From Halobacteriovorax sp. GB3 (GTDB lineage Bacteria; Bdellovibrionota; Bacteriovoracia; Bacteriovoracales; Bacteriovoracaceae), in contig NZ_JAQSLN010000005.1 in NCBI RefSeq assembly GCF_028649655.1, forward strand, positions 1,409 to 65,408: DNA of 64,000 nucleotides. Reading direction: 5' to 3'. The notes below the pieces were generated by a model. It saw nothing but the letters and a program-made list of their open reading frames with translations. It was not told the origin of the DNA and made no database searches. How positions within the stretch are numbered: position 1 is the first letter of the stretch; each line of letters starts with the position of its first letter. Positions 58,482 to 61,570 of the stretch are shown here, in pieces. Made by a program: the position numbers and the translations under genes.

Positions 58482-58913
58482 ATGATAAAACTTAAAGTTC
58501 TTAAATCACCAGATATAGAGAAGCTCGTACCCTTCACTTTCAATTTTGATCAAATCAAGATTGGGTCAAAAAAATCCTGTGATATTTACTTGAAAGATAT
58601 GGCCATAAAGAAACAGGTTTTAACTTTAAAAGTTAAAGATGATAGAGTTCTTGTTACAGGTGAAAACTCGGAGCTTTTTTACAAAATAAATGGAAAGAAA
58701 ATATCTGGGTCTAAACTTCTAAGAGTTGGCGATTTAATTACGATCGGTGAAACTCAGTTATTATTAGAATCAGCGAAGGAAAACTGGAATCCAATTACAG
58801 TTAATTTTGAAGAAAAGATTTCAAATGCAATAAATGAGACTCCTGAGATGAAAGAGATTTTTGATCTCCTTGAAAAAGAAGTCATCATAGCTGGAAAAGA
58901 AAAAGATGCTTAA
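58482..58913 (+). CDS. FHA-like domain protein
   Basis: A 143-residue protein with the forkhead-associated pattern: IKIGSKKSCDIYLKD near residues 25-39 (Gly and Ser of GxxxxCDI), then a core of beta strands. The usual SxxH motif is not clear: AIKKQVLTL stands where it should be, so phosphothreonine binding may be weak. A helical C-terminal tail (NAINETPEMKEIFDLLEK) follows. Its end overlaps the hydrolase gene by eight bases. Confidence 0.65.
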   Translation: MIKLKVLKSPDIEKLVPFTFNFDQIKIGSKKSCDIYLKDMAIKKQVLTLKVKDDRVLVTGENSELFYKINGKKISGSKLLRVGDLITIGETQLLLESAKENWNPITVNFEEKISNAINETPEMKEIFDLLEKEVIIAGKEKDA

Positions 58914-59790
58914 AACAAATTATAGTGCCTATAAATACACAGACCAAAACACCAAAATCCTGTACTCAACTAATTTTGAAATCAAGAACATAAAAAAGGA
59001 TGAGCCTTTACTCGTTTTTAATTACGGCCTAGTTTGCTCCAATGCACACTGGATGTATCAACTACCCTACTTTGAAAATCTAGGATATCAAATCCTCATT
59101 CATGATTATAGATGTCACTTTTCATCTGAATGCAGTGATGGAATTGAGACTTGCACCTTTCAAAATATTGCTAACGACCTTCATTCAATTTTAAAAGATA
59201 TTAATTCGAAAAATGTTCACATGATCGGGCATAGTATGGGCGTGAATGTGACATTAGAATACGCACGTCTCTACCCTGAATTCATAAAATCACAAACACT
59301 GATATCCGGAACAGTCTTACCACCACAAGATATTATGTTCGACTCGAATATTGTCGACATAACATCGCCTTATATTGAAGATGTTGCTAAGAACTTTTCC
59401 GATCTATTCGAATCTATTTGGAAAAGTTCATATAAAAACCCCATTGCAAGACTTGCTGTTTTAAGAGGTGGGTTTAATCCGAAAAAAACAAGTGATGATT
59501 TTGTTCAACTGTATATGAAGAGAATTGGTGAACTTAATAGCGATCTCTTTTTTCATCTACTTAATCAGATGAAAGAGCATGATATTATAAATGATCTCGA
59601 GAAGATAAAAACACCTACTCTCATCATTGGTGGCGATAAAGATAAAGTTATTCCTAACTATCTTCAAAAAATTCTCTATCAATATATTAAGAATTCAGAA
59701 CTCTATATCGTAAAAGACGGAAGCCATGTTCCTCAAGTCGATTTTCCAGACTCTATTAATGATAGAATTTCACGATTTTTAAATTCTTAA
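58906..59790 (+). CDS. Alpha/beta hydrolase
   Basis: A 294-residue hydrolase-fold protein. The nucleophile elbow is GHSMG (Ser near 105), the acid is in GGDKDKVIP and the catalytic His in DGSHVPQ. No signal peptide is seen. It overlaps the FHA protein gene, so they are cotranslated. The substrate is not known; esterase, lipase or epoxide-type activities are possible. Confidence 0.85.
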   Translation: MLKTNYSAYKYTDQNTKILYSTNFEIKNIKKDEPLLVFNYGLVCSNAHWMYQLPYFENLGYQILIHDYRCHFSSECSDGIETCTFQNIANDLHSILKDINSKNVHMIGHSMGVNVTLEYARLYPEFIKSQTLISGTVLPPQDIMFDSNIVDITSPYIEDVAKNFSDLFESIWKSSYKNPIARLAVLRGGFNPKKTSDDFVQLYMKRIGELNSDLFFHLLNQMKEHDIINDLEKIKTPTLIIGGDKDKVIPNYLQKILYQYIKNSELYIVKDGSHVPQVDFPDSINDRISRFLNS

Positions 59791-61031
59791 TCTACGTTCA
59801 TATTTTTGTATTGAAGTAAGTCTTTAAAAACTCTCTTCATAGCAGATATTTTTTGACTTCTCTTATACTCTTGGTGAGATGCCTCACCTTCAGTATTTTG
59901 CTTATGAGCATCGACATCTACAACTTGAACTTCAAATGGGTAAAAGAATCGAACATCTCTAGCAATAAGAGAGAAATCCATTGAAAGAATCTTCTTTCTG
60001 AGTTCATCATTTTCATCGGCCTTCTTAGCTAGTTTACGAAGGTCATGAAATTCTGTCATAAATGGATTTTTATATTTGATCAACTGTCTACATGTGAACT
60101 GAATTGATTGATAACCTTTCTTAGAGTGAAGATTTCGATCAGAGTTTTTACTAGAAAATCCATTTTCCATAATCTCTCTATTTAGAGCCTGTAAAAAACG
60201 CTCTTCTGAAAGATTATTACGTAATGCCATTCTTAGAATTTCACTATGTCTTCTTCTAAAATTATCCAGATTCACCATCGTATTTACTGAACGACTAGGC
60301 TTGATATTGTGAGGAATGATGACGTTATTCTCAACAAAAAACTTCACAGCAAGAAGCGAGTCGAAACGAGTTTTGGTGATGACTCTTACTCCAATTCTAT
60401 CAAATAATTCTTCAGCGACATTTTCAGCCTTATGAAGAAGTTTAATAATAACACTATCACGAGTTTTCTTAGACTTCGTTTCAAAATCTATTAATGGGAT
60501 TTGATATTTATTATCACTTGTCCCTAGAAATAAATTTTGCTCTTCATCGCGATACAGATACTTATAAAACTTATCAAAAATCTGAGTCTGAATGACATTA
60601 AAGTAGCTAGAACGGAGATCCTTATCAACATGTAAAATAGTATGCATGATTTTTAAAACGATCTCACACCATAACTTCTCCTCATAAGTCTTTGAAGGAT
60701 CAGCACCTGTGGCCGTTAAAAATACATCACTGATATCAGTAACCATATATAGTGAATTTGGTATTTTAAGATCAAGGCCATCACGACTTCCCTCTTTAAG
60801 GAAATAACGTCGGATAAACTGAAGGGCCTCTTGAAAGTTCCCAAAGAGCTCAGCTTTACTAATATTATCACTTGGATCAAGACCATAACTCTTAAGAAAA
60901 GAGTTCACCTTATCTATATTGAATTTCTGATCTCCCAGGAACTTTGAATCAAGCGAAGACTTGCCGCCAATAACAACATCAAAAACTTCCCAGTCAAAAA
61001 TATATTTAGATAAATAATCAGGTCTATTCAT
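59787..61031 (-). CDS. RelA/SpoT-type (p)ppGpp synthetase-domain protein
   Basis: A 414-residue protein. Residues 1-180 are a helical domain I do not recognise. Residues 183-395 align by eye with the RelA/SpoT synthetase fold: KSKKTRDSVIIKLLHKAEN (ATP site), Asp211 in DRIGVRVI (the Mg2+ Asp of DIAGIR), KKGYQSIQF with Tyr307 (the Tyr that stacks on GDP), Glu367 in FEVQV (of EVQIRT), and HQEYK near 386 (of AHWxYK). All main catalytic residues are kept. It lacks an HD hydrolase domain and the TGS and ACT domains, so it looks like a stand-alone synthetase with its own N-terminal regulator. Confidence 0.7.
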   Translation of the reverse strand: MNRPDYLSKYIFDWEVFDVVIGGKSSLDSKFLGDQKFNIDKVNSFLKSYGLDPSDNISKAELFGNFQEALQFIRRYFLKEGSRDGLDLKIPNSLYMVTDISDVFLTATGADPSKTYEEKLWCEIVLKIMHTILHVDKDLRSSYFNVIQTQIFDKFYKYLYRDEEQNLFLGTSDNKYQIPLIDFETKSKKTRDSVIIKLLHKAENVAEELFDRIGVRVITKTRFDSLLAVKFFVENNVIIPHNIKPSRSVNTMVNLDNFRRRHSEILRMALRNNLSEERFLQALNREIMENGFSSKNSDRNLHSKKGYQSIQFTCRQLIKYKNPFMTEFHDLRKLAKKADENDELRKKILSMDFSLIARDVRFFYPFEVQVVDVDAHKQNTEGEASHQEYKRSQKISAMKRVFKDLLQYKNMNVD

Positions 61032-61081: not shown

Positions 61082-61570
61082 ATGAATGACAATAAGAGAC
61101 TTAACGCCCTTAGCCTAGAAAACCTTTTCCTCTCCTTTTTTGGAGTTGGCCATATCCCATGGGCCCCTGGAACTTTTGGAACACTAGCTACAATGCCATT
61201 TCTCTATGCTCTTGGTGCATTTGGTACACCATTCTTTTTTCTTATTCCTTTTATTGTTATTACCTTTATTATCTCGTGTTTTATTACTGACCATGTTCAA
61301 AAACAGTTAAAAGTTGAGGATCCATCATGGATCGTTATCGATGAAGTACTCGGGATCATGGTTACATGGTTGTTTCTACAATCGCATCACTGGATTCATT
61401 ACGTTGTCATTTTTATTTTCTTTCGATTTTTCGATATTGTGAAAATTTGGCCAGCAAATTACGTCGATAAAAACGTCAAAAACGGTATTGGTACAATCTT
61501 AGATGATATTATAAGTGGTGTTTACGCAGGGCTCCTATACCTAATTCTTACAAAATTAAACATTCTCTAA
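61082..61570 (+). CDS. pgpA: Phosphatidylglycerophosphatase A
   Basis: A 162-residue membrane enzyme removing phosphate from phosphatidylglycerophosphate. Family motifs are visible: GVGHIPWAPGTFGTLATMP, WIVIDEVLG and the C-terminal FRFFDIVKIWPANYVDK with GTILDDIISG. Three or four membrane spans are predicted. It is divergent from the RelA-like gene and its end is near the recA promoter repeats. Confidence 0.93.
   Translation: MNDNKRLNALSLENLFLSFFGVGHIPWAPGTFGTLATMPFLYALGAFGTPFFFLIPFIVITFIISCFITDHVQKQLKVEDPSWIVIDEVLGIMVTWLFLQSHHWIHYVVIFIFFRFFDIVKIWPANYVDKNVKNGIGTILDDIISGVYAGLLYLILTKLNIL

Follow-up and report, generated by a model that had tools for sequence, protein, structure and literature searches.

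The window, a 64,000-nucleotide stretch of genome, encodes a 414-aa protein that belongs to TIGR04552/TIGR04562, a named family whose names carry no function. Its relationship to RelA/SpoT proteins is real and beyond chance, with a core fold that is predicted to be of this type. We infer catalysis and pyrophosphate transfer: the protein is probably an active ATP-dependent pyrophosphotransferase from a diverged, lineage-wide branch of the RelA/SpoT superfamily, formed by the TIGR04552 family. Judged from its residues, this is no standard (p)ppGpp synthetase, as most of the ATP side appears to be retained and the acceptor side to be rebuilt.

Family membership and predicted fold

The gene is an intact ORF of 414 codons (Table 1), whose C-terminal end lies 13 residues past the synthetase-like core. 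In an NCBIfam search, its translation matches TIGR04562 (4e-135, 450.6 bits against a cut-off of 140, model positions 1-356 of 356) and TIGR04552 (1.8e-129, 432 bits against a cut-off of 125, model positions 1-352 of 352). The initial annotation had called the protein unannotated, which holds for function, on which the family names are silent, but not for family, since both models span the full protein. The Pfam domain RelA_SpoT (PF04607) matches residues 189-246 with E=8e-4 and 20 bits, under the curated cut-off of 27. Among 70 homologues, down to 26% identity, RelA_SpoT matches 64 at E<=1 (best 4e-9), and four homologues exceed the Pfam cut-off in a search of genomes. Searches relying on this cut-off would overlook most TIGR04552 members. 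Besides RelA_SpoT, Pfam found no HD hydrolase, TGS, ACT or other known domain in the protein or the 70 homologues, in agreement with the lack of a hydrolase domain noted at the outset.

A profile search of the PDB placed YwaC first (0.013) and RelSeq second (0.079), both weak, and a search with the single sequence gave one chance match only. In a profile-profile alignment, FEVQVVDVDAHKQNTEGEASHQEYK pairs ungapped with a 25-residue Rel motif, the match to Rel covering 37 columns only at 36% probability. The AlphaFold (AF2) model built from the 70-sequence alignment has a mean pLDDT of 90.4 and a pTM of 0.83. When compared with the PDB by Foldseek, this model retrieves S. aureus RelP first, then B. 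subtilis RelQ and Rel proteins; RelP accounts for eight of the nine chains matched at E<=1e-3 and RelQ for the ninth, with probability 1.00 and a best E of 3.7e-5, while Rel ranks lower. The N-terminal region and the insertions keep the whole-model TM-scores low (0.2-0.3, Foldseek). By VIA, the core matches RelQ at Z 11.7 (2.5 A over 145 residues) and RelSeq at Z 11.3. The stand-alone RelA/SpoT-type synthetase fold that had been proposed, with structure prediction as its check, is hence what the model predicts.

Table 1. Location in the window of the TIGR04552/TIGR04562-family gene, its parts and its neighbours.
Feature	Position	Strand	Basis
TIGR04552/TIGR04562-family gene, 414 aa, RelA/SpoT-type synthetase fold (predicted)	59787..61031	-	translation, NCBIfam, model
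N-terminal helical region, residues 1-158	60558..61031	-	fold and sequence searches without match
Synthetase-like core, residues 178-401	59829..60500	-	predicted model, structure searches
Donor-site motif K189-x3-S193-x3-K197-x3-K201	60429..60467	-	conservation in 70 homologues; RelP equivalents PMC5794853
D211-x4-R216, metal Asp and adenine-stacking Arg (RelP Asp107, Arg112)	60384..60401	-	70/70 both; role by homology
Insertion splitting the acceptor (G-loop) region, residues 251-299, between N250 and N300	60135..60281	-	homologue spacing, model helices
Tyr307, putative acceptor-base tyrosine of the G-loop	60111..60113	-	Tyr 60/70, Phe 10/70
Second, variable insertion, residues 322-358, between two strands	59958..60068	-	model, homologue spacing
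E367-x-Q369...G382...H386-x2-Y389, catalytic-Glu motif and ribose-contacting His	59865..59933	-	ungapped to Rel; conservation; role by homology
PgpA (phosphatidylglycerophosphatase A), divergent neighbour, 50 nt between starts	61082..61570	+	domain match; common to 43/82 homologous loci
Alpha/beta hydrolase, convergent, 3' ends overlap by 4 nt	58906..59790	+	ORF list, domain match

A conserved donor side

In RelP, Arg78 and Arg112 stack on the adenine, Lys80, Lys88, Arg91 and Ser84 hold the phosphates, Asp107 and Glu174 hold magnesium, His190 holds the ribose, and guanosine nucleotide binding depends critically on Tyr151 (PMC5794853). With equivalences set by sequence spacing and not by superposed coordinates, five of these positions are invariant in the 70 homologues: K189 (Lys80), K197 (Lys88), D211 (Asp107), R216 (Arg112) and E367 (Glu174). 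S193 (Ser84) is found in 67 and H386 (His190, paired via the Rel motif) in 69, and K201, which corresponds to Arg91 with an offset of one residue, is Lys in 67 and Arg in 3. Tyr307, placed opposite Tyr151 by sequence only, is replaced by Phe in a minority of homologues (Table 1). The motifs quoted in the initial annotation sit where it put them (DRIGVR 211-216, GYQS 306-309, FEVQ 366-369, HQEYK 386-390), and the key synthetase residues that it singled out are kept, strictly for D211 and E367 and as Tyr or Phe for Tyr307.

This donor side, made of K189, S193, K197, K201, R216, H386 and the magnesium ligands D211 and E367, would bind ATP-Mg, and the beta,gamma-pyrophosphate of ATP would then be moved to an acceptor hydroxyl.

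A rebuilt acceptor side

The protein resembles RelP (YwaC/SAS2) and RelQ (YjbM/SAS1) in its predicted core fold, in standing alone without a hydrolase, and in the presence of K-x3-S-x3-K, D-x4-R, the G-loop Tyr, the metal Glu and the ribose His. However, it is about twice their length, with an extra N-terminal helical region, a 37-53-residue insertion in the G-loop and a second insertion, it lacks the Arg of both R-x-K and ExQIR, and it has mostly lost YxxxH. With the long RSH proteins (Rel, RelA, SpoT) it shares the ExQ...G.A.H..YK block, ungapped and with the same Glu-to-His spacing of 19 residues, whereas HD hydrolase, TGS, ZFD and ACT are missing and the acceptor stretch GRFKDYIAxPKxN is replaced.

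The Arg of R-x-K (RelP Arg78) has no equivalent, position 187 being mostly Pro, Ser or Ala; Lys186, one residue off and present in 69 of 70 homologues, may act as a stand-in. The Arg that all 21 of the compared Rel proteins have in ExQIR is replaced as well: ExQ is kept, but x-Asp takes the place of the Arg-Thr of ExQIRT, and this Asp (D372) is found in 67 of the 70 homologues. The metal Asp and the G-loop Tyr lie 83-99 residues apart, against 44 in Rel and 44 in RelP (published residue numbers), because of the insertion between N250 and N300, two invariant residues that are separated by 37-53 residues in all 70 homologues. In the model, this insertion holds two predicted helices (255-272 and 276-289). 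The distance from Tyr to Glu is also larger, 27-70 residues against 16 in Rel. Given the loss of two Arg that are both conserved in Rel, the first also in RelP and toxSAS according to published residues, and the rebuilt acceptor region, the original label of alarmone ((p)ppGpp) synthetase exceeds the evidence. The acceptor may be held by Tyr307 together with the rebuilt region carrying N250 and N300, and the helical insertion and the N-terminal region may serve to choose the acceptor or to regulate the site.

The N-terminal region

Residues 1-158 are mostly helical (pLDDT 83 when modelled separately) and include a series of conserved positions (G23, S25, D28, Y49, G50, P91, W121, H130, H134, D138, Q148 and Q150). 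Sequence searches with this region returned nothing better than chance (best E 0.3), Foldseek gave no match under 1e-3 in the PDB, and the best VIA match reached Z 4.7. As sequence and fold searches did no better than chance, we do not name a domain here, and the early statement that this part differs from the usual regulatory domains is borne out within the sequence, Foldseek and VIA searches. The pattern H130-x3-H134-x3-D138 (window 60618-60644) is near-invariant (69, 69 and 67 of 70, respectively), and from its sequence it could be a metal or ligand site.

Distribution and other RelA/SpoT proteins

The TIGR04552 family is present in 172 of 192 sampled genomes of the phylum Bdellovibrionota, nearly all with one copy, and in 148 of the 158 that are of good quality; genomes without a match mostly measure 1.2-2.8 Mb. 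No match to the family was seen in any of 14 named control genomes. The ORF is intact in nearly all homologue matches listed. The labels of the public contigs that carry close homologues read Bacteriovoracaceae, Halobacteriovoraceae or Oligoflexia, which places the window in this group. This is therefore a lineage-wide protein, and not an extra synthetase peculiar to one organism, as had first been suggested.

The plasmid and viral collections searched contain no homologue, aside from one record labelled phage. This record, MW495066.1 ('Microcystis phage MaAM05', 274 kb), bears a TIGR04552 homologue that is 28% identical, as well as glyS, secD/secF, scpA/scpB, acpS, fabI and mtgA. On this gene content we reject its assignment to a phage; it is almost certainly a bacterial contig, whose source is perhaps a relative of the predators.

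The genome from which the window comes has one other RelA/SpoT protein, a 728-aa Rel with an HD motif (FLHDVVED) and the synthetase motif set. Given this intact-looking bifunctional Rel, the TIGR04552 protein would indeed be a second synthetase-type enzyme, as initially supposed, and a (p)ppGpp hydrolase is available. Some genomes of the taxonomic family to which the window belongs (loci L122, L123 and L125) encode a further RelA_SpoT protein of 331-346 aa, with the motifs YR(S/G)IH and ExQ(I/L)R, which is distinct from both TIGR04552 and Rel. Another locus (L128:1237-2574, - strand) encodes a protein of 446 aa whose N-terminus resembles a signal peptide and which matches RelA_SpoT at 2.4e-7; it is possibly an exported RelA/SpoT-type enzyme.

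Gene context and possible activities

If the protein is a pyrophosphotransferase, it may be a pyrophosphokinase whose acceptor is not GDP/GTP but an adenine nucleotide, the 3' end of an RNA or some small molecule, perhaps with a role connected to phospholipid synthesis; we regard this as quite plausible, if short of probable. It is consistent with a conserved donor side next to a rebuilt acceptor side, and the toxSAS/CapRel proteins of the same superfamily provide a precedent for acceptors besides GDP/GTP, as toxSAS act on tRNA, which they pyrophosphorylate, or produce (pp)pApp (PMC11782079). However, the present gene is chromosomal and phylum-wide unlike those of toxSAS/CapRel, it has no PADLOC match, and the structural score is lower (VIA Z 8.1). 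As for phospholipids, 43 of the 82 homologous loci have a divergent pgpA no more than 164 nt away; at 12 other loci, the same strand carries a gene for a PlsC-like acyltransferase that starts -13 to 64 nt from the stop. The latter arrangement, as at L046:3113-3847, belongs to a Bdellovibrio-like subset, with stop and start often overlapping. Both neighbours are phospholipid genes, which gives a hint of a link to phospholipid synthesis but amounts to guilt by association; moreover, pgpA is part of a conserved gene order towards recA in the group, and finding it next to the TIGR04552 gene may thus say nothing about the latter. The conserved neighbours are housekeeping-type genes, with no conserved antitoxin-like partner seen, and a promoter scan gave sites no more numerous than in shuffles.

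Alternatively, the pyrophosphotransferase could be a true (p)ppGpp synthetase, i.e. a small alarmone synthetase acting on GDP/GTP with the bifunctional Rel as its hydrolase, which we consider possible but somewhat doubtful. The G-loop Tyr is kept, as are the residues for catalysis and metal binding, RelP and RelQ are the best structural matches of the predicted model, and the Rel of this genome, whose hydrolase and synthetase motifs are apparently intact, could turn the product over. GDP/GTP is therefore a possible acceptor, although not one that is specifically indicated: the GRFKDYIAxPKxN stretch of Rel is wholly replaced and split by the helical insertion, the fifth position of YxxxH is Gln in 39, Lys in 18 and His in 13 of the 70 homologues (Gln or Lys in 57), the Glu of AExG, invariant in Rel, is mostly Thr or Leu and is found in 7 of 70 only, and ExQIR has lost its Arg.

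That the protein retains the RelA/SpoT fold but is catalytically dead, with a regulatory or binding role, is improbable. This reading would fit the absence of two Arg conserved in other synthetases, and also an observation on the TIGR04552 member of Bdellovibrio sp. NC01, in which a one-base deletion is among the mutations reaching high frequency in evolved predatory populations (PMC9888234). This suggests that the member can be dispensable in that laboratory coculture, but a gene may be dispensable in one condition and still encode an active protein, and a dead site is not expected with D211, E367, K189, K197 and R216 invariant in all 70 homologues. The growth-phase switch evoked in the initial annotation did not gain from the analysis either, as no link to it emerged and it is in a Bdellovibrio homologue that the one-base deletion reached high frequency. 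In the open-access literature searched, TIGR04552 is named in that paper only, in a mutation table, and nothing was found on Bdellovibrio small alarmone synthetases. Finally, DNA polymerases of the same superfold align with the model at Z 6 to 7.5, but a nucleotidyltransferase transferring NMP rather than pyrophosphate is likewise improbable, since most RelA/SpoT matches score above this (Z 7.4-11.7) and the pattern of K-x3-S-x3-K, D-x4-R and ExQ...G...H..YK is RelA/SpoT-like.

Implications for Bdellovibrionota

An active pyrophosphotransferase is the reading that we favour. A more far-reaching version, a phylum-wide Bdellovibrionota pyrophosphokinase that produces a non-(p)ppGpp signal or uses another acceptor, senses an input through its helical domain and is possibly coupled to phospholipid synthesis, is speculative and on the whole unlikely to be right in full. 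If the enzyme is active, a phylum of predatory bacteria would carry a second conserved enzyme of nucleotide-signal type in addition to Rel, and the loss of Rel alone would not reveal all alarmone-type signalling in this phylum.
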